From: Chloroflexota bacterium
GTDB lineage: Bacteria > Chloroflexota > Anaerolineae > Ardenticatenales > Ardenticatenaceae
Length of the DNA: 21,577 nucleotides
Direction of reading: 5' to 3'
Assembly (NCBI GenBank): GCA_003520455.1
Contig: DOUV01000675.1
Coordinates: 1 to 21,577 of the forward strand
Shown: piece after piece, positions 4,331 to 21,577 of the stretch
Numbering within the stretch: the first letter of the stretch is position 1
Layout: each line of letters starts with the position of its first letter
Made by a program: the position numbers and the translations under genes
Notes under the pieces: generated by a model
What the model was told of the DNA's origin: nothing
The model's input: the letters and a program-made list of their open reading frames with translations, nothing else
Database searches by the model: none

Positions 4331-5800
4331 ATGAGCCTGCTGGTGCGCGGCGCCCAAGTCTTACTTCGCGATAGCCGGGAGTGGCACCTCGAGCGCTGCG
4401 ACCTACGGATCGAGCGGGGGATCATCACGGCGCTCTTACCCCCTGGGTCGAGCAGCGATGCCGACACGAGCCCTGACGAGACAAGCGTCATCGACGCTTC
4501 GGGAGAATGGATTCTACCGGGGCTTATCAATGCGCACTACCACTCCCATGACAACCTCATACGTGGGACCGGCTCCAGCGCCCCACTTGAAATCTGGTCA
4601 CTCGAGTCCACACCACTACGGCAGGAGTACGACCCACGCGAAGCCTACATCAGCACACTACTCGGCTGCGCTGAGTTACTCGCGAGTGGCTGTACCGCAG
4701 TGATCGACCATGTGAAGCTTTCCCCGCACCTCGATCCAGAGGCTCTCGCCTCGGTCGTAGCCGCATATCGTACCGCAGGGCTCCGTGTAGTTGTGGCCCC
4801 CGTTATCTCCGATCGCCCTTTCGCTGAGAGCCTACCACTGACCGCTACGGAGCGCGCAGCCTGCGGGGGTCTGGTCGGTTGGTCAACGATGCCGGCGATG
4901 GAACAGATTGCGCGCGTGGAAACGCTGATTCGCGTTACAGACGATGGAGTCGGCGGACGGGTACGGGTTGGGGTTGGACCCTCCGGGCCGCAGCGTTGTA
5001 CGGATCGCCTGCTCGTTGAGGCAGCGGCTCTGGCAAGCCGCTATCAAACTCTTCTGCACATGCACGTTTTGGAAACACGCTTGCAAAGGGCTATGGCCAC
5101 GCGTCTCTATAGCCAGCCCATGCTGACGCACTTAGCAGAGCTTGACGTCCTGACACCGCGCACGCAACTGGTCCACCTGGTCTGGCCAGAGCGGGACGAA
5201 TTGGCTCAAGTTGTGAGCACCGGAGCTGTCGTGGTACACAACCCCATCTCGAATGCCTATCTGGGCAGTGGCGTGGCGCCGGTGCCGGAACTACTCGCAA
5301 TGGGCATCCCTGTTGCCATTGGCACCGATAGCGCCTGTTGCAACAATAGCACCAGCCTCTTCGAAACCATGAAGTGGGCCGTACTCATCCACAACCTTAC
5401 CTCACCTGATCCGGACCGGTGGCTTCCTACCGATGCTGCGCTGACGATGGCGACGGCGGGAGGTGCGCTGGCGTTGGGACAACCATATCAGGTTGGTGAG
5501 ATTGCGCCGGGTCGATCGGCAGATCTGGTCTGCATCGACGCACAGAGCCCTGGCCTGGTCCCGCCCAACGCACCTGTGCGCCAGATCGTCACAGCCGGCA
5601 CCCAAGCACAAGTGACGCGTGTATTCGTCGCCGGCGAACTCATCTACGATCACCACCCTTTGAAGTTCGACCTGAACGCTTTGCACCAGGAAGTCCGGGC
5701 ACTGGCTGCCACGCGACTGGAACGCTGGAGAGGTCGGTCAGACCCAAAGGTACAGGCTGTAATACGAGCGGCGTACCAGCGCGAGATTGCAATGCGCTGA
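4331..5800 (+). CDS. Second amidohydrolase/cytosine deaminase-like family
   Basis: A 489-residue amidohydrolase of the same branch as the 1405-2733 gene, clearly a distant paralogue. Ligands seen are HYH in GLINAHYHSHDN (H69, H71), LHMHVLET (H245, E248), LVHLVW (H282) and GTDSAC (D333). The conserved NPISNAYLGSGVAPVPEL matches the equivalent stretch of the first enzyme. ATG 4331 has GAAGGA seven bases upstream and lies one base after the regulator stop, so it is translationally coupled. Two related aminohydrolases in one operon suggest stepwise deamination or dechlorination of one compound, or of two related ones. Cytoplasmic, no signal sequence. The exact substrate is unknown. Confidence 0.88.
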   Translation: MSLLVRGAQVLLRDSREWHLERCDLRIERGIITALLPPGSSSDADTSPDETSVIDASGEWILPGLINAHYHSHDNLIRGTGSSAPLEIWSLESTPLRQEYDPREAYISTLLGCAELLASGCTAVIDHVKLSPHLDPEALASVVAAYRTAGLRVVVAPVISDRPFAESLPLTATERAACGGLVGWSTMPAMEQIARVETLIRVTDDGVGGRVRVGVGPSGPQRCTDRLLVEAAALASRYQTLLHMHVLETRLQRAMATRLYSQPMLTHLAELDVLTPRTQLVHLVWPERDELAQVVSTGAVVVHNPISNAYLGSGVAPVPELLAMGIPVAIGTDSACCNNSTSLFETMKWAVLIHNLTSPDPDRWLPTDAALTMATAGGALALGQPYQVGEIAPGRSADLVCIDAQSPGLVPPNAPVRQIVTAGTQAQVTRVFVAGELIYDHHPLKFDLNALHQEVRALAATRLERWRGRSDPKVQAVIRAAYQREIAMR

Positions 5801-5924
5801 TCGATCGCTCCTTTTTCAACGTGTGGGCGCGATGGAGTTTGCGAACGAGCGGCCCCGCACGCAAACCTCACGCCCGAGAAGGTTTCTACTGTTTCGGGCC
5901 GTTTGAACAAAGGAGAGAGAACGT
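5801..5924 (+). promoter_or_regulatory. Intergenic leader with two hairpins before the binding-protein gene
   Basis: GTTTGCG (5837-5843) pairs with CGCAAAC (5860-5866), and GCCCGA (5872-5877) pairs with TCGGGC (5894-5899). A strong ribosome binding site, AAGGAGAGAG, precedes ATG 5925. The hairpins could stabilise the binding-protein mRNA or act as a processing point between the enzyme and transporter halves of the operon. No clear promoter was found here. Confidence 0.35.
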
Positions 5925-7607
5925 ATGACGAAGCCACACGCACTCGTCCTGCCGCTCGCGGTGGCGGTCCTCCTGATAGCCGTGGGCTGCGCGGGTAGTC
6001 CACCCGCCACGCCTACAGCTCCACCTGCGGCACCAGCTACGAGTCAGGCTGAGCCAACGAAGGCCCCGACGGCGGCCCAGACCCAGCCAACCGCAGCGCC
6101 TTCCAAGCCCACCGAAGCACCTGCGGCCAAGCAGCCAGCAGCACCGTCAAAGGATACGATCGTTATCGCCCAGGGTGCGGATGCCTTCAGCATGGACCCC
6201 ACCCAGCACACCGTCCTCCCCACCGCTGCGATCTTGTTCCACATTTACGAGCCCCTCATCTTTCGTCAGCCCGACGGCAGTTTTGCCCCGGGCCTGGCAG
6301 AATCTTGGGCACAGGAAGAGCCCACACGTTGGCGATTCCATCTGCGCAAGGGCGTGAACTTTACGAATGGGGAGCCGATGAATGCCGAGGCAGTGGCCTT
6401 TAGCATCAATCGAGCGATCGATCCCGAGACGAAAAGTCCCTACCGCAGCCGCCTGAGCACGATCAAAGAAGCGAAGGTCGTCGACGAGTACACGGTCGAC
6501 ATAGTAACGACAGAGCCCGATCCCGTGCTTGAGCATCGCCTCATTCAGAATAGCTTCGCGTCACTGATCGTTCCGCCCAAGTACGTCAAGGAGCATGACG
6601 GCAAGATCCCCGATGACGCACCAATTGGAACCGGCCCATACAAGTTCAAGGAGTGGGTCAAGGACGATCATGTTACCCTGGTTGACAATGAGGACTACTG
6701 GGGAAACGATCTCTTCTGGAGCGGCAAGCCGAAACCCAAAACGCTCATCTGGAAGCCAATTCCGGAGACCAGTGCACGAATCGCAGCCCTCAAGAACAAT
6801 GAGGCCGACATCATCGTGAACGTTCCGCCCGAGTTAGCAGACAGCATCAACAGTAACGAGGGCACGCAGGTGGTGGAGGTTCCCAGCGACTTCCTCTACT
6901 TTGTGGTCATGAACACCGAAACGGTCAAGGCATTCCAGGATCAACGCGTTCGCCAGGCAATGAACTATGCCGTCGATGTCGACGCGATTCTAAAGAACAT
7001 CATGCTCGGGCACGGGAAGCGTATCGCCGTCACCATGACAACAAATGGCTTTGCCTATCCCGACGATCTCAAGCCCTATCCCTACGATCCAGAGAAGGCG
7101 AAGCAGCTCCTCACCGAGGCGGGCTACCCCGACGGATTCGGTCCAATCGTCTTTATGTCCCGCAACGGGCGCTATCTGAAGGACGCTGAAATCGTTCAGG
7201 CGGTTGCTGGCTATCTCGACGAGGTCGGCGTCAAGACTGAGATTAAGTTCGTCGAAGGGGGTGTCTGGGGGAACCTGGGTGATGCCCACCAACGCGGCGA
7301 TATCAATTTCCCGGGCTGGAGCGGACTCGACCCAGACCTGGTATGGTACCCGATCCTGCACTGCGACCAATTCCAGAGTTACTTCTGCGACAAGAAACTG
7401 GATGCTCTCTTGGATACCGGCCGTTCGACCATCGACAAACAGAAACGTGCGGAGATTTACAAGGAAGCGGGCCATCTGATCTACGAGTTGGCACCGCACA
7501 TCCCGCTGTTCCAGCCACCACTGCTGTACGGTATCAACAAGGACCTGGTCTGGAAGCCGTCCGGAGACGACTTGATCAATCTCCGCGGCGCCTACTTCCA
7601 GAAGTAG
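5925..7607 (+). CDS. ABC transporter substrate-binding lipoprotein, family 5 (SBP_bac_5)
   Basis: A 560-residue extracytoplasmic binding protein of the peptide/nickel (DppA/OppA) family. It has a lipoprotein signal peptide with lipobox IAVGC, modified Cys 22. A low-complexity Pro/Thr/Ala/Lys linker (about 24-76) tethers the binding lobe to the membrane. Family 5 features include YEPLIFRQPDGSFAPGLAES, WRFHLRKGVNFTNGEP and the QAMNYAVDVDAIL hinge region. A strong RBS precedes ATG 5925. Family 5 proteins bind peptides, nickel, opines, sugars or other small solutes, so the ligand is not set by the fold. The neighbouring aminohydrolases and nucleoside phosphorylase homologue suggest a nitrogen-rich, possibly nucleoside-like ligand (inference). 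A large hairpin follows its stop. Confidence 0.95.
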   Translation: MTKPHALVLPLAVAVLLIAVGCAGSPPATPTAPPAAPATSQAEPTKAPTAAQTQPTAAPSKPTEAPAAKQPAAPSKDTIVIAQGADAFSMDPTQHTVLPTAAILFHIYEPLIFRQPDGSFAPGLAESWAQEEPTRWRFHLRKGVNFTNGEPMNAEAVAFSINRAIDPETKSPYRSRLSTIKEAKVVDEYTVDIVTTEPDPVLEHRLIQNSFASLIVPPKYVKEHDGKIPDDAPIGTGPYKFKEWVKDDHVTLVDNEDYWGNDLFWSGKPKPKTLIWKPIPETSARIAALKNNEADIIVNVPPELADSINSNEGTQVVEVPSDFLYFVVMNTETVKAFQDQRVRQAMNYAVDVDAILKNIMLGHGKRIAVTMTTNGFAYPDDLKPYPYDPEKAKQLLTEAGYPDGFGPIVFMSRNGRYLKDAEIVQAVAGYLDEVGVKTEIKFVEGGVWGNLGDAHQRGDINFPGWSGLDPDLVWYPILHCDQFQSYFCDKKLDALLDTGRSTIDKQKRAEIYKEAGHLIYELAPHIPLFQPPLLYGINKDLVWKPSGDDLINLRGAYFQK

Positions 7608-13084: not shown

Positions 13085-13270
13085 ATGGGAGACGGCGAAC
13101 TGTTCCTCCCGGAAGAAGGGTTTGGAGAAGACTTGGCTGATCTGCGTCAGGAACTGGGTATCCCAGAGAAGCGCCGCTTCGAGACCAAGATCGAGTTGGG
13201 CTTGAAGATTATCAGACGCGCCAACGCCAATGGTGTATCCTTCGATTGGCGCGCCTGCAACGCGGTTTAG
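13085..13270 (+). pseudogene. IS701-family transposase fragment
   Basis: About 61 codons resemble the middle of IS701-type DDE transposases: ELFLPEEGFGEDLADLRQEL, then FETKIELGLKIIRRA and VSFDWRACNAV, where intact relatives read roughly DRELYLP, FATKxEL and FxWVxxDxxYG. Both ends are missing. An in-frame stop lies just before the ATG, and the frame ends in a TAG exactly where the sequence passes into the ubiquitin-like gene of the other strand. It is a scar of an old insertion or deletion, not a working element. Confidence 0.72.
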
Positions 13271-13712
13271 CCACGAGCGTCCCAATGTGAGTATCCTCAT
13301 CGGGGCGGATCGTCGAGTTGCAGAGTTGGAGCGCGTGTTCTGCGGCATCAGTCGGTGGGAGGTTAAAGCCTTTGGGGCCCACCGCCCAGCGCTTCACACG
13401 GTGGATCGTCGCTGAGGGCGGAAAGGCCTCGGCCTTTTGGCCGCCGCTGAAGTTGACGACGACTTCAACCTGGCGGCAGCGGTGGACGTGAACGCGGCTC
13501 CGGTGCCGAACACCGGCGGCTTGCAGTGCGGCGCTGTGGTCCAGAGCCTCCTCAGCGTCTTCCAGGAGCACACTCGTACCTCCATCCGCAGTGACCAATC
13601 CGTGGCGGCTAGCCACTTCCAAGATGTCTCGAACGGTGCCGTCGTCCGGCACTCGCACCAGCACGATCTGAGGGATTCCCTCGCCTTGTAGGAAGATTTC
13701 GATCTCGGACAT
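13212..13712 (-). CDS. Tandem ubiquitin-like (beta-grasp) protein, 3' end disrupted
   Basis: A 166-codon frame. Residues 1-80 form one beta-grasp-like unit (MSEIEIFLQG, VPDDGTVRDILEVASRHGL, then RSRVHVHRCR). Residues 81-147 form a second (VEVVVNFSGGQKAEAFPPSA, VKRWAVGPKGFNL, DEDTHIGTLV). This two-unit layout matches ubiquitin-like proteins of bacterial conjugation operons, which normally sit with E1-, E2- and JAB-like genes. ATG 13712 is preceded by GAGGAG at proper spacing, so an in-frame upstream extension is rejected. The last 19 codons (AKPRCRRANRR onward) are antisense to the transposase fragment, so the native C-terminus needed for conjugation is probably lost and the gene is likely a remnant. 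Family assignment is from pattern memory and should be confirmed by profile search. Confidence 0.62.
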   Translation of the reverse strand: MSEIEIFLQGEGIPQIVLVRVPDDGTVRDILEVASRHGLVTADGGTSVLLEDAEEALDHSAALQAAGVRHRSRVHVHRCRQVEVVVNFSGGQKAEAFPPSATIHRVKRWAVGPKGFNLPPTDAAEHALQLCNSTIRPDEDTHIGTLVAKPRCRRANRRIHHWRWRV

Positions 13713-14122
13713 TCTCTTTCTCCTCGCGCAATATGGCGCTTGATGGTTTCTGAAGGTCTGCAGCGTCACTGCCGCTCGCTCCTTCTACTCCATCAATCCA
13801 CGCAGGGCGACAAAACCGGAAACAGGATGTGGCATTTCACCGGACAGTAGGGCTGCGCTCGCAGGCTGAAGCAGGCGTCGGAACGGGCAAGAGAAGGAAG
13901 CATCTACGCCAGGCGCGTCACACGGCGGGCAAGTGGCACAGTGGAGGCAACGGGACGCTGCGAATCAGCGGGTTAGCGGGGTGCAATTGCGGCCATGACC
14001 CACCCCGTCAGCCGTTCGATACAGCGCCGGCAGAGAGGCACGGTCGGCGAGCAGCGCAACGAAGAGAGGCAGCCCACGGTTCAGATGAGGCGATGGGGCG
14101 TACTGCGGATCTGCTATCAGCT
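13713..14122. other. 410-base gap without a recognisable gene
   Basis: This lies between the ubiquitin-like gene and the 3' end of the helicase gene. Open frames exist on both strands (for example plus 13829-14167), but they have no ribosome binding site, recognisable motif or family resemblance. No convincing promoter or terminator was found. It may be a decayed gene or an untranslated region, and it suggests the ubiquitin-like gene is not simply co-translated with the helicase. Confidence 0.5.
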
Positions 14123-17100
14123 CTAATTCGCCTCGTCCTCGGCAACGGGGCAGATGAAGTAGTGTGAACAGCGGGGACACTCGCGGTCGTTCGGTCGATG
14201 GGGGAATTCCGCTTGCAGAATTCCGACGATCGCATCGTCGTACCGTCCGAGGCGCGTGGCTATTGTTTTCGCTCCCAGCTCAACCCTCTCGACGTGATCG
14301 CTCGATAGATACACAAGTTCAACGCGTGTGCCTGCTTCCGGGTAGGCCCGTCGGCTTCCTTCCTGATACAGAGCGTAAACGTTCTTCTCGGTCTCACTCT
14401 TGCTGGGCCGCCCGGTTCGCCAACGGCGGACCACGGGTGGTGCGCTGCCATCTGGAGAGATCTCGACGTGGTCGGGCTTGAAGCCGACGTGACCGTGCGC
14501 CAGCGGAATCTTCCACTCGGGCTGAACGAATACACCAGACGACTGACCCGACCGAGTGACCACCCGCGCCACGATCGCCGTTGCTGCTTGCCAATAGATT
14601 GCCTCGTAGGCGTGACTCTTCAAACCTCTTTTCTCCCAGGCCTCTGCCAGCCGCTGTTGCCTGACGGCGACGTTGACCTCCCGCCCCTGCACTCGTTCGG
14701 CCTGCAGCCAGTGCAAAACGTCATACACACAGCGATGGAACTGGACGTAGGCTGAGTCCTCGCGCCTGCCACCCAGTCCAAGAATGAATTCGTAGTAGTA
14801 CTTTCGCGGGCAGTTTATGTACACATCCAACTCGTCGGCGGGAAATAATGGGGGCTCAAGCGGTGGTGAAAGTGGGATAGCGGCCTCTGGACCCACTTCG
14901 CTCCCAGGCCACGTGATCGAGCCGAGTGGCGGATAGGGTAACTCGGCGGCGACCGGCGAGAGAAGGCTCGACGGCGCGCTGTTCTGGCTGCCGTAGCGAT
15001 TCGCACGCGACAGGCAGAGGACGTCGCGCGCGCGCGACAACGCTACAAAGAAGAGGCACTCTTTCTCCTCGGCGTGCCAGTCTCTCGCCTCATGCGCAAC
15101 CATTCCAGTAGGCGGCGGGCAGATCTGACCTCGCCAGGGTACAGGAAAGTACCGTTGCCCGAGACCGGGCAAGTAGACAGCGGTGAACTCAAGACCCTTG
15201 CTCGCGTGGATTGTAAGTAGTCGCACGGCATCCAGGCCCATCGCCCACTCCGGTACCTCGCGGAGCTGGCGCTCTTCGCCGAAGATTTCGAGCCGCCGCA
15301 CGTACTCGAGGAACGCTCGCTTCGGGTCCTTGTCGTCTGCAAGAGCGCGTATGCGCTGCTCATGCGCGAACTGCAGGAACTGGAAGACCGCCAGCCGGCG
15401 CTGCTGACCGCCGACCGAACTGTCGTTCAGCAAAGGTCGCAGGTACTGGCTGCGGACGAACAGGTAGCGGACGAGCAGCCCCCAGGCAGTGCTCCCGTAG
15501 CAAAGACCATCCAGATGCCGGGCAAGCAGCACGAGCCCAGCCTTCCCCACTGCAGAGATCGTTTCCGCTTCCTGCGCGAGATGGAGCGCGCGTGGGAAGG
15601 GAACATCCTGCTCGCTTGCCAATTCAAGCAGAGCTTGTACATCCGAGAGGGGGATCTGGTACTCCGCAAAACGTGCCACCCGGACCAACGCGCATCGGTC
15701 ACCTGCGGCGAGCGCCATGAGCGCGAGCAGATCGCGGATCTCGTGGCGCTCAAAGAGGTCGCCCAAGTAGAGAATCGGGATCTCTGTCTGCTCGAGGTAG
15801 GTGGCGATGCGCGCGAGGAGTGTATGCGAGCGACAGAGCACGGCCTGATCACAGTATGGGATTCCAGCCGCCCGCTGCCGCTCGATCTCGCGTGCCAGTC
15901 CAACCCCCTCGGCGGTCTGGTCCACTGCGACCTCCATGAGTACCCGCCCACTTCCGTCGCGTCGGGCAGGCTCCCAGGGGATGAAGTTTGTTCCTCGCGT
16001 TGCCCTCATCTGGGGTGCCAGAGTGCCGACAACCTTGAGGATCGACGGCTGTGAGCGATAGTTCCGCCCAAGTGAACGCACCGTCGCGCCTGGGAAATCG
16101 GCAGGAAAGAGCCGCATATTGTCCGGTGCTGCTCCCCGGAAGCGGTAGATGGCCTGCCGCGCGTCCCCGACGACCCAAAGCCCGGCGCCCTCGCCGGCGA
16201 TCTCGCATAGGAGCAGCCCGCTCGCGCGGTTGACATCCTGGTATTCGTCCACCAGCACGTGCCGGAAGCTCTGCCTGATGTACTCGCGGATGTCACTGTG
16301 TGCCCGCAGCAGCATCACCGTGCGGAAAATAAGATCGCCGAAGTCGAGCAGGTACTCCCGCTCGATGCAGTCCTGGTAGATTGCGTAGACCCGTGCCACC
16401 TCAAGCGCCCGTTCCGCAGCCTCCCGCGCCTCATCAGCTTGCGCCGCCGCAAGCATCTGCTCAGCCAGAGCCACGTACGCAGCAGGGCCGACCAGCTCGT
16501 CCTTGGCACGCGAGATCGCGGCCAGGATGTAGCGCAGATTGGTGGTCGGCTCGTACAGGTTCCGGTAGTGATCGAGCGGGAGCGAGGGCAGCAGTCGTTC
16601 GAGCCGGAAGAGGGCGTCGACCGGATCGATGACTGTCAGCCGTGGCGGCAAGCCAAGCCGGCTTCCGAACTTCCGCAGCAGTTCAAGACCGAAAGCGTGG
16701 AACGTTCCCACCCAGATCCGCGGCGCCGCTTCCGGCACGACGCGCGCGACGCGCTCGCGCATCTCTTCAGCGGCCTTGTTCGAGAAGGTCAGGGCGAGGA
16801 TTGCGGAAGGCAGCACCTTTTCCTCTTCGAGCAGAAAAATGATCCGTCCCACCAACGTGCGGGTCTTCCCAGTGCCCGGTCCTGCTTCGGCCAGGAACGG
16901 CCCGCGGTTGACGCGCGCGGCTTCTTCCTGGCTCGGGTCGAGGTGCAGCTCGAGTGAATCACGGTCCTCCACGTTACCATCGGAGGGTATGGAGGTCAGC
17001 AAGGCTCGCGCGAGTTGGTGAAATACAAGTCCGTCAGGCAGGCCGACGCGAGCTGCAATTGCCGTCGCGTCCAGGTGATCCTCGACATACCACTGTCGCA

Positions 17101-17536
17101 CTGTCTCAGCCGGCAGGAAGAACTCCCGCGCGAATACGTTGGCCTCGCGCTCCTGCCGCTCCTCGGGATTGTAGCCTTCGACGTAATGGACGCCCGGCGG
17201 CACGCTCCCTTCGGTGATCTCGGGGTCGACATCAGAGGCGCTGCAGGCGGTGTGATCTCCATGCAGCCAAAAGTGGGCGTACTCATGCCCGATGTAGAAG
17301 GTGGCGAGCTCCGGGTCGACGTCTTGGTTGAACCAAATAACGTGGCTGGTAGGGTCAAGTATGGCCTCGCCGCCGTCCAACAGGGAATCTACGGCGGGAA
17401 CGCCGTGAGGCTTGATCCCCGTAATCTGCACCGCCGCCGCGATGAGCGCCTTGGCTGACGAATCACCGTTGGCCCTCGCTCGCGCGGTAGCATGCCACGC
17501 TCGCGCCTGTCTCTTAATCTCATCCCAATGGCTCAT
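14123..17536 (-). CDS. ImmA/IrrE metallopeptidase - UvrD-like SF1 helicase - degenerate AddB-type nuclease fusion
   Basis: A 1137-residue fusion. Residues about 25-185 are an ImmA/IrrE (M78) zinc peptidase with HEYAH (84-88) and the EREANVFAREFFLP motif (129-142). Residues about 200-850 are an SF1A UvrD/PcrA-like helicase with Walker A AGPGTGKT (218-225), Walker B VDEYQDVN (429-436), VVGDARQAIYRFRGA, TIHASKGLEF (775-784) and VALSRARD (831-838). Residues about 900-1130 resemble the Fe-S PD-(D/E)XK domain of AddB/Cas4, with C909 and C1120, C1123, C1129. Its catalytic D/E-x-K is replaced by R1038-W-R1040, so nuclease activity is doubtful. ATG 17536 was preferred over TTG 17569, though AGAGG lies 12 bases upstream. 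IrrE-type peptidases usually cleave an HTH repressor; one is encoded at 19464-20105. Confidence 0.9.
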   Translation of the reverse strand: MSHWDEIKRQARAWHATARARANGDSSAKALIAAAVQITGIKPHGVPAVDSLLDGGEAILDPTSHVIWFNQDVDPELATFYIGHEYAHFWLHGDHTACSASDVDPEITEGSVPPGVHYVEGYNPEERQEREANVFAREFFLPAETVRQWYVEDHLDATAIAARVGLPDGLVFHQLARALLTSIPSDGNVEDRDSLELHLDPSQEEAARVNRGPFLAEAGPGTGKTRTLVGRIIFLLEEEKVLPSAILALTFSNKAAEEMRERVARVVPEAAPRIWVGTFHAFGLELLRKFGSRLGLPPRLTVIDPVDALFRLERLLPSLPLDHYRNLYEPTTNLRYILAAISRAKDELVGPAAYVALAEQMLAAAQADEAREAAERALEVARVYAIYQDCIEREYLLDFGDLIFRTVMLLRAHSDIREYIRQSFRHVLVDEYQDVNRASGLLLCEIAGEGAGLWVVGDARQAIYRFRGAAPDNMRLFPADFPGATVRSLGRNYRSQPSILKVVGTLAPQMRATRGTNFIPWEPARRDGSGRVLMEVAVDQTAEGVGLAREIERQRAAGIPYCDQAVLCRSHTLLARIATYLEQTEIPILYLGDLFERHEIRDLLALMALAAGDRCALVRVARFAEYQIPLSDVQALLELASEQDVPFPRALHLAQEAETISAVGKAGLVLLARHLDGLCYGSTAWGLLVRYLFVRSQYLRPLLNDSSVGGQQRRLAVFQFLQFAHEQRIRALADDKDPKRAFLEYVRRLEIFGEERQLREVPEWAMGLDAVRLLTIHASKGLEFTAVYLPGLGQRYFPVPWRGQICPPPTGMVAHEARDWHAEEKECLFFVALSRARDVLCLSRANRYGSQNSAPSSLLSPVAAELPYPPLGSITWPGSEVGPEAAIPLSPPLEPPLFPADELDVYINCPRKYYYEFILGLGGRREDSAYVQFHRCVYDVLHWLQAERVQGREVNVAVRQQRLAEAWEKRGLKSHAYEAIYWQAATAIVARVVTRSGQSSGVFVQPEWKIPLAHGHVGFKPDHVEISPDGSAPPVVRRWRTGRPSKSETEKNVYALYQEGSRRAYPEAGTRVELVYLSSDHVERVELGAKTIATRLGRYDDAIVGILQAEFPHRPNDRECPRCSHYFICPVAEDEAN

Positions 17537-17800
17537 GCTATTGATCTGCCTCTTACTGGGCTGCCACAATTATCAGAAAAAACTCAGGTTAAGCGCCTCT
17601 AAAGCAGAAACCCGGAGAGAACAGCCTTTATCTCAGGATTCCGCCCTCGCCGGGGAAAGATTCTACCTCGCCAACGTCAGTTCCAGAGGGTCAATGTTTA
17701 TCATTATCACAGGAATTCTTCCGGGCAGACCGCCGATTTCACGCCCGTTGGTTCCTTATTCCGCCTTTTCTGTCGGATGATTGTCGCAGCCTGTACCCTG
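17537..17800. other. Gap between the helicase gene and the unknown protein
   Basis: 264 bases without a convincing gene. On the minus strand there is a TTGACC and a TAGAAT, but their spacing (23 bases) is too long for a normal promoter. A TTTTTT run lies near 17580, with no stable hairpin before it. The helicase gene may have its own weak promoter here or be read from the upstream operon. Confidence 0.4.
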
Positions 17801-18253
17801 TTAGTGCAAACTGGAGCGCCGGCAGCGCCCACCAGAGTTCTCTGGCATGTGCGAGGGGTGGCGCAGCGTTCCGTCGACGGCCTCAGCGAACCACCCCAGC
17901 CAGCGTTCAATGAACTGCTCTTCGTCTCCTTGATCGAACGGAAGCGGCTCCCACGCCACCTGACGAGCCGATATGGCCGGTGAAAAGGCCCGGGCAGCCG
18001 CCTCCTCTGTGGGAGGAAGGGCAAACGGATCGAGGCTGAACCTTTCACGAACAAGAGGTTGCACCATGAAGGCCATTTCAAACCAGCGATAGACGCCCTC
18101 GTCGTGGGCGTCGCAGAACCACAGCGAGTGGCTGCGCCCTTCGTAGTCGTACTGGTCGCGGGGCTTACGTGCAGCGATGGCGGTGTAGGCAATCACGTCG
18201 AATGCAGGTGGGCGACCAATGACCGCCAAGCAGTTAGATGGCGCTGACCTCAT
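17801..18253 (-). CDS. Conserved-looking protein of unknown function, coupled to the kinase
   Basis: A 150-residue protein I do not recognise. It is rich in Trp and Phe in blocks (SHSLWFCDAHDEGVYRWFEM at 41-60; ERWLGWFAEAV at 116-126) and has an acidic stretch (PFDQGDEEQF). Its C-terminal 15 residues are basic and look unstructured. No signal peptide or membrane segment is seen. ATG 18253 overlaps the kinase stop by ATGA, so it is translated by coupling. GTG 18289, twelve codons upstream in frame, is an alternative start. The tight coupling suggests that it is a substrate or partner of the kinase. Another frame (17707-18192) overlaps it but has the composition of a shadow. Confidence 0.7.
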   Translation of the reverse strand: MRSAPSNCLAVIGRPPAFDVIAYTAIAARKPRDQYDYEGRSHSLWFCDAHDEGVYRWFEMAFMVQPLVRERFSLDPFALPPTEEAAARAFSPAISARQVAWEPLPFDQGDEEQFIERWLGWFAEAVDGTLRHPSHMPENSGGRCRRSSLH

Positions 18254-19284
18254 TGGATCGACAACCAAAACTCCGTCGCCGAGTCGCACGACCGATTCGG
18301 GGGCTGTGTGACAGCGGCCGAAGGGGCGGCCTCGAGTACACGCGCTATGAGCCTTTCTAGAATCCCCTCAAGAGACTGCTTGGCTGCGGCGAAGAGCTCC
18401 GTCCGCCGTTCCTCAGCCGATTTCTGAGCCGCCGCCATCGCTCCTTCTTGCGTCTGTCTGTCGACGATTACCTGGTTGGCGGCTTGAAGCTTCGCGGCCG
18501 CTGGCGAAGGAGCCTGCTGGCTCGCGCGTAGACGCGTCAGAATGTTAGCTGGCGTGGGGCGCGCCTGTGGCGCCTTATAGAGGCACTCGGTCACTAGACT
18601 CGCAATTGAAGGTGAGCAACCTGCTAAACGTGGTGGTGCTTGGTTCAGGTGCTGCTCCCGATAGTCCCAGGGGCTGGGGCCGGGGAACGGCCGGTGGCCC
18701 TGGAGCAGCTCAAAGGCCATGACGCCGAACGCATACACGTCGGTTGCCGGGGTGGCCCGCTCAGCCCGCCACTGCTCAGGTGCAGCGTACGGGGCCGTGA
18801 GGGCATACTTCTGCGTATCGGGTGCGGTAGTGGCTTCCGCGTAACGCGCGATCCCGAAATCTGCCAAGCACCAGCGGCTCTCGTACAGTAGAACGTTCTC
18901 AGGTTTGAGGTCGCGGTGTACGACCCCCTGTTGAAGGCTAGCGAGGGCTTCAGCCACGTCGAGGAGGACGCGCACAGCCTCGTCGGTGGCAAGCTTCCCT
19001 CCAGCCTCGTTGAGGTGCTGACGAAGAGACTTCTCGGCGCGCGGCATCACCAGAACATAGTAGTCCTGCCATTCCCCGGAATCGATGATCGGGATGATGT
19101 TAGGAAGGCCGGAGACAGGCTCAAACAGTAGCTCGCGGGAAGCACCAGGTGCCTTAGGTACCAGCTTTACGACTGCCTGCGAGCCGTCCTCGGCCTCGGC
19201 CTCGTAGATACGGCCAAAGCCACCCTTTGTGATCTCTGTGCCGAGCCACCACTTTCGCCGCAGCTCGATTGTCTCGGAAGCCAT
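18250..19284 (-). CDS. Soluble Hanks-type serine/threonine protein kinase
   Basis: A 344-residue kinase. It shows the glycine loop TKGGFGRIYEAE (19-30), catalytic Lys 40 (AVVKLV), HRDLKPEN (123-130), DFG (142-144), APEQW (168-172) and DVYAFGVMAFELL (182-194), so it should be active. After the kinase domain (ends about 255) is a helical Ala/Gln-rich tail with a likely coiled coil (about 265-325) and no membrane helix or PASTA domain, unlike PknB. It is therefore cytoplasmic and senses something through partners. ATG 19284 has GGAGG six bases upstream; the open frame is longer but that part has no kinase features. The 3' end overlaps the unknown protein by ATGA. Confidence 0.93.
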   Translation of the reverse strand: MASETIELRRKWWLGTEITKGGFGRIYEAEAEDGSQAVVKLVPKAPGASRELLFEPVSGLPNIIPIIDSGEWQDYYVLVMPRAEKSLRQHLNEAGGKLATDEAVRVLLDVAEALASLQQGVVHRDLKPENVLLYESRWCLADFGIARYAEATTAPDTQKYALTAPYAAPEQWRAERATPATDVYAFGVMAFELLQGHRPFPGPSPWDYREQHLNQAPPRLAGCSPSIASLVTECLYKAPQARPTPANILTRLRASQQAPSPAAAKLQAANQVIVDRQTQEGAMAAAQKSAEERRTELFAAAKQSLEGILERLIARVLEAAPSAAVTQPPNRSCDSATEFWLSIQ

Positions 19285-19463
19285 CTCTCGCCTCCAAACT
19301 GCGTGGGTCGACCTCGAGCCGACCTTCACTGAGTGCACGCTATGCCAACCCGCTGAAGGATCGGAAACATTAGTCGTGCTTCCCACCGGTGGGCGACTGA
19401 CGCAAGTCACACGGTCGCGTAGAACAACAGCCCGAGTTTTCTTTCTGATGATTGTGGAAGCCC

Positions 19464-20105
19464 TTACTCCTCGCGGGATTGCAGTGCCAGCCAGTGCTGG
19501 CGGCGCTCTTCGCTCAATGCCGTGTCATTGCGGACCGCATCGAAGAAGTCCTCCTGTGTCGACAGGGTAGGGACCTGGTTGGCCCAATAGCGTGCCTGTA
19601 GTGCAAATCGCGGCCTTCCCTGTAAGTAGCGGGCGACGGCGGTGATCGTGCGATCAAGGGCTTGGGCAAGCGCCTTGATCGCCGCGAGCGGGATGGACGG
19701 GTAGCGGATCAACCGCCGGTCGAGTTTCCCCACCAGGGGGACGCTCATCTCTGCGCGCTCAGCAAGGTCTTCGATTGACGCGCCCCTCGCTTGGGCCTCG
19801 GCAACCAACCCGGAGATCGGCCGGTCCCCGTCGTCCGGGTCTTCGACCTGTCTCTGGTGCAGAAGGTTTTGGACAACGCTCATCCCCCGCAGGACCAGCG
19901 TATCTTCATCAACCGTTTGGGAATCAGGAGCAGGCGGAAGCTGCTGCATGAGGGTCCAGCTCACGGTGAACTCAGTGAGTTCCCGCGCGTACTGTGGGTA
20001 CCGCCGGACCCACTCCGCGAGGGCAGCATGGCTCCGGTCTGAGGTAGACGCAACGTAGGCGTCCAGCACGTCCTGCAAAGTTGGCTTCTCAGGAGGCTGC
20101 TTCAT
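19464..20105 (-). CDS. HTH-containing protein paired with the sigma factor (possible anti-sigma or repressor)
   Basis: A 213-residue protein. Its N-terminal part (8-55; LQDVLDAYVAS, EWVRRYPQYARELTEFTVSW) matches a helical module I associate with proteins beside bacterial sigma factors. An XRE-like helix-turn-helix follows at about 108-160 (ASIEDLAERAEMSVPLVGKL, ALAQALDRTITAVARYL), then a C-terminal helical part (DFFDAVRNDTALSEE). ATG 20105 overlaps the sigma stop by ATGA and has GAGGAG at the right distance; ATG 20123 would lie further into the sigma gene. No membrane segment. It probably controls the sigma factor or its genes. XRE-type regulators are the usual targets of ImmA/IrrE peptidases, and one is encoded in the same cluster. 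Function is inferred. Confidence 0.78.
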   Translation of the reverse strand: MKQPPEKPTLQDVLDAYVASTSDRSHAALAEWVRRYPQYARELTEFTVSWTLMQQLPPAPDSQTVDEDTLVLRGMSVVQNLLHQRQVEDPDDGDRPISGLVAEAQARGASIEDLAERAEMSVPLVGKLDRRLIRYPSIPLAAIKALAQALDRTITAVARYLQGRPRFALQARYWANQVPTLSTQEDFFDAVRNDTALSEERRQHWLALQSREE

Positions 20106-20884
20106 ATCGGCTCTCCTCGCCATCTTTCTAGGATCTTTTCAGCTTCAGCCAGCCAGTTTCGAATAGTACGGGGCGTCCTGTTGAAATGGCGGCTGATTGT
20201 GGGTACGTCCGGGTCACTGTCTTCGATTGGCCAGCCCTCGTAGTAGCGCAAAATGAAGGCGGTTCGGAGCGGCTCCTGGAGAGTCTTGAGCGCGTCCTGA
20301 AGCAGAAGTCGCTGTTCCATCGAGACGGGCGGATCAGGAAGGTCATCGGTCGACACCGCGAGGCGATTCGTACGGTCGTCTAGGTCGTGATCCTCTCCAG
20401 CCAGATCCAACAGTGAGACGAGATTCTTGTCGGCCTCAATCTCCTTCACTTTTCGATTGTATGCGGAGATCGTCCGCCTGTCGAGGGCAACCCAAAAGCG
20501 GACTTGCAGAAAGTCGCCTTCGTCGCTCTCCAGGTTCAAGATGGCCCTGAACAGGTCTTCGATCACGTCTTGGTAGGCTTCGTCTACCATCGCCGGCGGA
20601 AGCGCCTGCAGCTTCCCGTTGACCCGCTTCGCACACCGCTTAACCAAGATCCCTGACAGTGCGCTGACAGCCTTGCGGTTCTCTTGCTCACGGTAGTGAC
20701 GAATGAGGTAGACAAGGGTCTTTTCCTGCAAATAACTCGAAGTCATATGGTCGCGCTTTTGGGCACGCTCGATCAAGTGTGGAAGAGACATACCGAGAGC
20801 AGATTCGATCTGCTCGTCGACTTCGCGGCTCCGTTTGTATACCTCGCCGGCGCTATTGCGGTGGGTCAGGGGTTGAGGCGGCAC
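20102..20884 (-). CDS. RNA polymerase sigma factor, sigma-70 family (ECF-like)
   Basis: A 260-residue sigma-70-family protein. Region 2 is at about 65-145 (DEAYQDVIEDLFRAIL, then RFWVALDRRTISAYNRK). Region 4 is at about 195-255 (LQEPLRTAFILRYYEG, ISRHFNRTPRTIRNWLAEAE). Region 3 is absent and there is an acidic linker (AGEDHDLDDRT), as in ECF-type factors. The 60-residue N-terminal extension before region 2 is longer than usual for ECF factors. The start is GTG 20884 with GGAGG nine bases upstream. It is the first gene of the leftward cluster, downstream of a good promoter at 20999-21027, so it may be expressed constitutively and held inactive by a partner. Confidence 0.87.
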   Translation of the reverse strand: MPPQPLTHRNSAGEVYKRSREVDEQIESALGMSLPHLIERAQKRDHMTSSYLQEKTLVYLIRHYREQENRKAVSALSGILVKRCAKRVNGKLQALPPAMVDEAYQDVIEDLFRAILNLESDEGDFLQVRFWVALDRRTISAYNRKVKEIEADKNLVSLLDLAGEDHDLDDRTNRLAVSTDDLPDPPVSMEQRLLLQDALKTLQEPLRTAFILRYYEGWPIEDSDPDVPTISRHFNRTPRTIRNWLAEAEKILERWRGEPI

Positions 20885-20998
20885 GCCGTTTCACCTCCGT
20901 CGTTGCCTTGATTTGCACGGCACGGTGCCCATCCTGCGCCTCCTCTCGATGAGTTCCCTACCCCGTCAATCGTCACGATCTCGCTGAACCGGAAGCCG

Positions 20999-21089: not shown

Positions 21090-21182
21090 CTACCCTCGTG
21101 CGACATGGCAGAGATAACACGACGCGTAACGGACGCGGTGCCGGTGCTCGCCGCAGACGGAACACAGTTTGGGTAGTGTCAC
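21090..21182 (-). pseudogene. Possible truncated zinc-ribbon small ORF next to the IS256 end
   Basis: A 30-codon frame from GTG 21182 encodes MTLPKLCSVCGEHRHRVR then YASCYLCHVARG, with two CxxC pairs 16 residues apart, like a zinc ribbon. No ribosome binding site is seen and the frame starts inside the transposase 3' end, so it may be the rest of a gene cut by the insertion, or chance. Confidence 0.3.
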
Positions 21183-21577
21183 CCGGTATTCGCATAATCG
21201 ACCCGGTCGTGTTTGGCATGTTCGCGGACTATGACCAGATGGAACACGGTTAAGCAACTGACTTCATTTGGGAAGGCCCCGATCTGATCGGCCTTGGTGC
21301 GGAACTCGCGGAAAAAGCGTTCAAGCAAGTTGGTCGAACGCACGAGTGGCTGGAGGGCCGGATCGAGGTGGTAACAGGTGAAGCAGCGTTGGATGCTCCA
21401 GGTGAAACTCTGAACGGCTTGTGGTTCCAGGGGCTGCCACGTGGCCACGAAGGCAGCCAAGCGGTGTTCGGCTTCGACGCGGGTGGGGGCCTCGAAGAGC
21501 GCCTGGGCCTCGGCGTGCATGGCCTGGTGGCGCTGCTGACGGGCTCGATCACGCGTCAGCGGCTGGCCGGTCTGCGG
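21179..21577 (-). mobile_element. IS256-family (Mutator-type) transposase, C-terminal part, running off the window
   Basis: The frame is open from the window edge to TGA at 21179. It carries the C-terminal signature of IS256/Mutator transposases: STNLLERFFREFRTKADQIG then AFPNEVSCLTVFHLVIVREH, where intact members read TNxxER...R...FPNE. The preceding part (LFEAPTRVEAEHRLAAFVAT) also fits. The TNxxER glutamate is probably the last residue of the DDE triad. The first two catalytic residues lie outside the window. The terminal inverted repeat could not be placed; GGGTAGTGTCACCC at 21171-21184 overlaps the stop and is a candidate. Confidence 0.85.

Follow-up and report, generated by a model that had tools for sequence, protein, structure and literature searches.

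The window analysed here, the whole 21,577 nt of contig DOUV01000675.1 (assembly GCA_003520455.1) from a Chloroflexota bacterium of the Ardenticatenaceae, encodes on its minus strand a protein of 1137 residues (positions 14123-17536) in which an M78 (ImmA/IrrE) protease, a UvrD/AdnA-like helicase and an inactivated PD-(D/E)XK nuclease domain are fused. The fusion was defined from its open reading frame (ORF), Pfam matches, alignments and an AlphaFold2 model. It is the third gene of a cassette with the conserved order sigma-like gene, XRE-like gene, fusion, followed by an operon for ubiquitin-like (Ubl) conjugation. The favoured reading, given a probability of roughly 0.57, is that the fusion would act as both sensor and trigger in a self-contained switch: its protease would cut the XRE-like partner, and the sigma-like protein so freed would turn on the Ubl operon.

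The ORF ends at 14123 and starts at 17569 (TTG) or 17536 (ATG). The ATG is residue 12 of the longer reading and was judged the likelier start because the alignment of many relatives begins there; the extent 14123-17536 given in an earlier sequence-only reading was retained. Pfam matched Peptidase_M78 (residues 63-170, positions 17027-17350) with E 1.9e-8 and 34.6 bits against a curated cut-off of 22; the domain contains HExxH at residues 84-88 and E129 as the third ligand. The N-terminal UvrD-helicase part (16091-16942, E 1.2e-64, Walker A AGPGTGKT, motif II DEYQD) and UvrD_C (15002-15304, E 7.6e-27) also scored above their curated cut-offs in the same chain, and the superfamily 1 helicase motifs were found complete on comparison with profiles and alignments. 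PDDEXK_1 was matched at the C-terminus (14147-14833) with E 8.8e-10 and 39.4 bits, again against a cut-off of 22. All of these parts lie on the minus strand. The NCBIfam models nearest to the helicase were PcrA, Rep and UvrD, with scores far below their equivalog cut-offs.

Relatives were sought among 5.8 billion proteins. Of 7,994 candidates scored, plain helicases possibly included, 4,223 reached E<=1e-3; among the 120 matches listed, M78 was labelled in 106, PDDEXK_1 in 119 and UvrD in 120 (manual count). The AlphaFold2 model, built with a 56-row alignment, had a mean predicted local distance difference test score (pLDDT) of 90.5 and a predicted template modelling score (pTM) of 0.90, the linker at residues 190-195 being modelled weakly; Foldseek matched the model to UvrD/PcrA, Rep, AddA, AdnA/AdnB and RecB. 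A profile of the M78 domain retrieved CapP first from the PDB (7t5t, E 4.2e-5) and IrrE second (3dte, E 6.5e-4). The claim of the sequence-only reading that an M78 protease and a UvrD-like helicase share one chain is confirmed by the Pfam domains above cut-off, their conservation in relatives and the confident model. The closest database match (P0005), a 99% identical protein named from an Ardenticatenaceae metagenome-assembled genome, stops at 763 aa inside the helicase and is a broken or mis-assembled copy.

Active-site residues were compared in 119 full-length relatives, 54-65% identical, taken from the 120 listed with the 763-aa P0005 left out. H84, E85, H88, E129, the Walker A Lys, D430, E431 and C909 were present in 119/119, and C1120, C1123 and C1129 in 118/119, with one gap. 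In a wider alignment of 63 sequences (without those of loci L005, L030, L036, L055-L058, L066, L069 and L070) the zinc ligands, Walker A, the motif II acidic pair and all four Cys were 63/63. The profile of the C-terminal domain placed AdnA first among solved structures (E 5.7e-4). In that profile alignment R1038 of the window protein faces AdnA D934, identified as the catalytic Asp through PDB entries titled AdnA(D934A), and R1040 faces the Lys two residues on (K936). The D934 position is Arg in 119/119 close relatives and the K936 position in 118/119; in the wider set each is Arg in 41/63, with Lys at the second in 8/63. With the zinc and ATPase residues invariant and the AdnA Asp and Lys positions occupied by Arg, the protease and motor therefore look active and the nuclease does not, though the nuclease Cys are retained. 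An active nuclease in the fusion was ruled out on these two positions. The four-Cys pattern is presumably the Fe-S cluster of AddB/Cas4-type nucleases.

With the fusion protein as the sole criterion, the best 80 of 588 loci were taken from genome contigs. Eight helicase-only loci (L072-L074, L076-L080) were dropped and 72 were used, and neighbour families were scored with profiles built from clusters of the same loci. An XRE-like gene stands upstream of and beside the fusion in all 69 loci having at least 600 bp upstream, with a spacing from a 120-bp overlap to a 20-bp gap in 62/69. A sigma-like gene is present in 65 of these 69 loci, and three of the other four contain a sigma-region-2-like ORF, seen by eye only. 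The window's XRE-like helix-turn-helix (HTH) protein (19464-20105, minus strand, 213 aa, with a longer start possible at 20123) was assigned by locus comparison and an AlphaFold2 model and is the presumed anti-sigma factor or repressor and protease substrate. The sigma-70/extracytoplasmic function (ECF)-like protein (20102-20884, minus strand) was assigned by Sigma70_r4_2 (E 1.5e-7) and locus comparison. The model of the XRE-like protein has an HTH fold at about residues 96-165 plus an additional N-terminal helical region. Its C-terminal tail after the HTH (window residues ~170-213) has a conserved K...KP...F with P179 almost invariant, and may be considered a candidate protease recognition or cleavage region. 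Upstream of the sigma-like gene, AAA ATPase-like and S8 subtilase-like genes recur in L019, L021, L023, L041, L054, L062, L064 and L070, and the S8-like gene alone occurs in L025 (recurrence by profile, names by eye).

A Ubl conjugation operon of the Bil or multi-ubiquitin type adjoins the fusion in 58 of the 63 loci with at least 2.5 kb downstream: BilA-B-C-D in 17, a multi-ubiquitin gene with an E1 gene in 39 and other sets in two (L018, L039). Two of the 58 operons (L024, L063) are upstream instead, on the opposite strand. PADLOC matched BilA, B, C and D at L002; the operon families of L045 and L019 were Multi_ubiq, Prok-E2_E, ThiF, Prok-JAB, DUF6791 and DUF6527. On a FastTree tree of 64 fusions the multi-ubiquitin label needs three changes and the Bil label six; therefore one cassette has served different Ubl operons. 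The fusion of L052 immediately precedes the Bil operon in Caulobacter sp. RHG1, a strain whose Bil operon has reportedly been tested for defence. Chimeric assembly as the source of the fusion was ruled out by the labels of its relatives and by the conservation of its neighbours (69/69 and 58/63). The sequence-only reading had further proposed that the helicase would couple DNA unwinding or end sensing to cleavage of a regulator, with the 19464-20105 protein as candidate. This interpretation is partly supported: the fusion is a conserved family, and the candidate substrate comes from the one gene family that adjoins it in every testable locus. Neither the sigma-like gene and the promoter-like motif it shares with the operon nor the neighbouring Ubl operons were noted in that reading, which also overlooked the Fe-S-type nuclease domain and its inactivation.

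A within-locus comparison of two stretches, the one preceding the sigma-like gene and the one separating the fusion from the Ubl operon, pointed to TTCCGGTT as part of a promoter-like motif. A consensus scan of the window for TTCCGGTT-N15-GATTGA found two perfect copies, both on the minus strand, one at 20966-20994, 81 nt before the sigma-like gene, and one at 13793-13821, 80 nt before the ATG of the BilA-like gene; every other site on either strand matched at most 11/14 positions. The first test of upstream regions within and between loci was mild overall (p 0.028), with 10/51 loci more than 2 standard deviations above background. The consensus was taken from the window after that test, and the later p-values for loci are not those of a blind motif. 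With it, a site around the fusion stop codon reached p<0.01 in 33/57 loci with a downstream Ubl operon (0.6 expected) and p<0.05 in 42. The 11 loci with no downstream operon in view gave p<0.01 in one (L053) and p<0.05 in two (L014, L053); four of the 11 (L005, L014, L043, L049) end soon after the fusion.

A looser pattern found 57 sites in 1.32 Mb, spread over 35/72 loci, vs 0-4 in five Markov copies. Cassette positions accounted for 54 of the 57 (manual count) and three lay elsewhere. Around the fusion stop, between 16 bp upstream and 26 bp downstream of it, lay 27 sites; 20 were inside the sigma gene, 209-221 bp before the gene end except in the shortened L066; five were at most 126 bp before the sigma gene (L002, L003 and L015 of Bil type; L051 and L053); and two follow a broken or shortened fusion frame (L066, L069). 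Codons at the in-gene site were CGG for 30/34 Arg and ATT for 27/33 Ile, whereas over all sigma and fusion genes of these loci the fractions were 1066/4344 and 621/2087; the counted rows are from related loci and were picked by protein pattern. This codon bias argues for constraint at the DNA level and against coding constraint as the cause of the in-gene site. The pattern suggests a promoter embedded in the sigma coding sequence, a possible dual-coding site, in L016, L019, L022, L046 and others.

Some Bil-type loci, including L052, carry GCTTCCGGTTTTT or a near form in both regions; L052 matches the full consensus poorly, at 11 and 10 of 14. Whole-genome scans of 12 genomes with strict patterns matched both cassette sites in six, where they make up 12 of the 16 sites, and gave 0-1 site in each of the other six. 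The ten fusion-less Ubl loci described below (131 kb) had one motif site, away from the operon start. The two sites of a locus share their second motif base (T/A/G) in 18/18 cases, which was not counted as evidence because it amounts to two changes on the fusion tree and two independent pairs, in a count with both traits set equal, the window added and the TG/TG locus L053 omitted.

Distribution was examined in two genome samples, each including as its centre a chosen known carrier: 385 genomes around Caulobacter sp. RHG1 and 369 around Kluyvera georgiana, presumably alpha- and gammaproteobacterial respectively. Thresholds in the first were E<=1e-100 for the fusion, E<=1e-50 for BilD and E<=1e-6 for Multi_ubiq; the second was searched for the fusion (E<=1e-90) and Multi_ubiq and not for BilD. 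The alphaproteobacterial sample had 5 genomes with the fusion, 6 with BilD and 9 with Multi_ubiq, and all five fusion genomes were within the 15 Ubl genomes. With the centre left out, 4/4 carriers fell among 14 Ubl genomes of 384, a chance of ~1e-6 by our own arithmetic for genomes that are not independent. The gammaproteobacterial sample had 2 with the fusion, both among 12 with Multi_ubiq. The fusion is thus rare, in 7/754 sampled genomes of which two were chosen centres, and was not found in 20/27 sampled Ubl genomes at the thresholds used. The non-centre carriers show sigma-like gene, XRE-like gene, fusion and Ubl operon in order in 5/5 cases. One validation locus (L139) has sites identical to those of L046 and may be from the same species.

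Of the ten alphaproteobacterial Ubl loci that lack the fusion, seven have a stand-alone M78 gene near the operon in a CapP-like arrangement; the fusion therefore seems to be an alternative component with the same role. The two HTH partners checked were both HTH_3. The other three fusion-less loci have a candidate HExxH ORF (L108), a BilD fragment (L110) and a RES-domain gene (L115). In L115 the RES-domain gene (5212-5949) adjoins the multi-ubiquitin operon, with neither fusion nor stand-alone M78 in view. Among 72,556 plasmid records 92 carry the fusion (E<=1e-60), annotated at the matches as 'UvrD-helicase domain-containing protein' or 'hypothetical protein'; 45 of the 92 plasmids are in Acinetobacter and 72 are predicted mobilizable or conjugative. 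It was absent from 50,697 phage records (E<=1e-40) and was not found in any E. coli record by a near-mode search only.

From the domain architecture, residue conservation, gene order and, in many loci, shared motif we infer a sequence of DNA triggering, cleavage and sigma release. The AdnA-like motor would load onto DNA ends or single-stranded DNA (ssDNA) arising from damage or phage attack, and the disabled nuclease domain would bind DNA without cutting it. Loading or translocation would activate the fused M78 protease, which would cleave the XRE-like (anti-sigma) protein and free the sigma-like protein. This would read the motif, amplify its own cassette and switch on the Bil or multi-ubiquitin operon. 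Overall, the cassette would be a CapP/CapH-like switch rebuilt upon an AdnA-like motor. The fuller claim is put forward tentatively, at somewhat under even odds: a motor-driven DNA-end sensor (AdnA-type helicase with disabled nuclease) would gate the fused protease, and destruction of the partner by this protease would release a dedicated sigma factor. That factor would act mainly on its own cassette, in many lineages from a promoter lying inside its coding sequence, and on the Ubl operon; bacterial ubiquitin-like immunity would thus be switched on through sigma-factor control, and the whole would form a new class of immune switch.

Several points weigh against the favoured reading. The main doubt is whether the XRE-like protein is an anti-sigma factor or a repressor, its binding to the sigma-like protein being a proposal. 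HTH_31 was detected in just 2/57 members of the XRE-like family, and the fold match of the window protein is generic: the best Foldseek E was 0.064, with DdrO first amid many generic HTH proteins, and was not used as proof. The sigma assignment comes mostly through region 4, with Sigma70_r4_2 in 20/30 members, Sigma70_ECF in 2/30 and no region 2 family listed. No motif site at p<0.01 was found in 24/57 loci, and by the pattern both sites are present in two of the five validation loci, a single site in a third and none in the remaining two, which are of Bil type; the motif could also be an operator of the XRE-like protein and not a sigma promoter. By profiles, 5/63 loci are without a recognised Ubl operon (L001, L004, L013, L020, L053), and therefore other outputs of the cassette are possible; in L013 the upstream sequence is too short for judging the cassette. 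The mechanism as a whole is predicted from sequence and models.

A repressor switch of the CapP/CapH type is unlikely as an account of the cassette, though it fits part of the evidence. According to PMC13373217, CapP is an ssDNA-activated M78 protease that cuts the HTH repressor CapH beside CBASS (cyclic oligonucleotide-based antiphage signalling system), Bub and other operons. On that account the XRE-like protein would be a DNA-binding repressor, the motif its operator or an adjacent ordinary promoter, and the sigma-like protein a secondary activator. The two are alike in several respects: the M78 domain of the fusion is closest in the PDB to CapP, an HTH-like partner gene (HTH by model) stands next door, both occur at Ubl operons, the HTH domains of CapH and DdrO are among the Foldseek matches of the XRE-like protein, and the stand-alone M78 genes, with HTH_3-type partners in the two checked, hold a like place where the fusion is missing. 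Against it, the partner here is a 213-aa helical-plus-HTH protein with poor HTH scores in place of a short HTH_3 protein, and the sigma-like gene is present in 65/69 loci. The motif, moreover, is not an inverted repeat and has two unlike parts at nearly fixed spacing. Two unlike parts at a near-fixed distance resemble an ECF promoter. The protease also differs, in that CapP-type M78 proteins are stand-alone (176-309 aa in the checked loci, 291 aa in 7t5t) and the 1137-aa fusion joins M78 to an AdnA-like helicase and a dead nuclease, next to a sigma-like gene and a promoter-like motif. The fusion was not filed under CapP, as it is neither a stand-alone M78 protein nor paired with a short HTH_3-type protein.

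That the fusion is instead an effector or processing enzyme, which would cleave multi-ubiquitin precursors or conjugates or attack phage DNA-protein complexes, is quite improbable. Tight linkage to Ubl operons speaks for it, and Ubl precursors may need processing. A JAB-type protease is, however, already encoded in two of three checked Ubl operons (L002, L019; L045 has DUF6791 instead), at the thresholds used most sampled Ubl genomes showed no fusion, its gene is directly adjacent to the XRE gene, and in many loci a promoter-like site separates it from the Ubl genes. A DNA-repair helicase standing beside these operons by chance, its M78 domain a passive remnant, would explain the strong similarity to PcrA/UvrD, AdnA/AdnB and AddA and is very improbable, since the zinc ligands are invariant, the distribution is that of a rare accessory gene and XRE and Ubl linkage in 69/69 and 58/63 loci, on which a chance neighbour was rejected, is not expected of one.

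Among the known systems close to the cassette is also PprI (IrrE) of Deinococcus, likewise an M78 protease and represented by the second PDB match of the M78 domain. According to PMC10904395, PprI cuts the HTH repressor DdrO when bound to ssDNA, and both ssDNA binding and stimulation require its GAF-like part; the fusion has a motor where PprI has that part. AdnA/AdnB and AddA/RecB share the arrangement of an SF1 helicase followed by PD-(D/E)XK, AdnA being the best PDB relative of the latter domain. They differ in that the fusion has Arg for the catalytic Asp and Lys and an N-terminal M78 domain, and the fusion was not filed under AdnAB given the missing Asp...Lys of the PD-(D/E)XK site. No second helicase-nuclease gene was seen among the recurrent neighbours of the fusion, the scope of that comparison being the loci and not the rest of the genomes. 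The kinase CapK and the phosphorylated repressor CapS, which occur upstream of Bub, Bil and CBASS operons, likewise form a DNA-damage switch before Ubl operons and resemble sigma/anti-sigma partner switching, according to PMC13373217; the proteins are unrelated by their description there, the cassette having a protease and a sigma-like gene.

PMC13373217 also reports, for 544 Bub operons, CapW or CapH+CapP at 219 and CapK+CapS at 59; activation of bacterial Ubl operons is only partly known and controllers are reported for part of them. The fusion and cassette were not described in the literature found by title and start of abstract, a scope with supplementary data sets outside it, so that prior listing is possible, perhaps under CapH+CapP; nor are they mentioned in the passages considered of PMC13373217, PMC10904395, PMC5512222, PMC8195603, PMC7159879 and PMC11354881. 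The parts and the principle, protease-triggered and DNA-damage-responsive control of immune operons, are known; the fusion build, the sigma-like gene and the Ubl tie were found in none of the papers considered, prior notice being possible. If the favoured reading is true, the cassette is a further type of Ubl controller for which the sensor can be named and candidates given for the substrate, the sigma factor and a 29-bp target site. The fusion is proposed to be a helicase-nuclease that has exchanged DNA cutting for signal transduction.

The window's own locus departs from this pattern. A BilA-like ubiquitin-like protein (13212-13712, minus strand; PADLOC BilA E 1.4e-47) has lost its conserved C-terminal end, as judged by tblastn and C-terminal comparison, and BilB, BilC and BilD were not found in the window, queries from four loci giving no tblastn match below E 0.04. 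The Bil operon of the window is judged decayed. Between the XRE-like and fusion genes, outside the conserved cassette, lie a Ser/Thr protein kinase (18250-19410, minus strand; Pkinase E 1.2e-35; PADLOC mad6, PD-T4-6) and a 162-aa ORF with no family match (17801-18289, minus strand), neither of which was seen at that place in the 72 loci; they are possibly another defence gene under the same control. With a decayed operon and a kinase between its genes, the cassette of the window may therefore be inactive or have another target, possibly the kinase. Just upstream of the cassette is a C-terminal piece of a Mutator-family transposase (21179-21520, minus strand; Transposase_mut E 7.5e-9).

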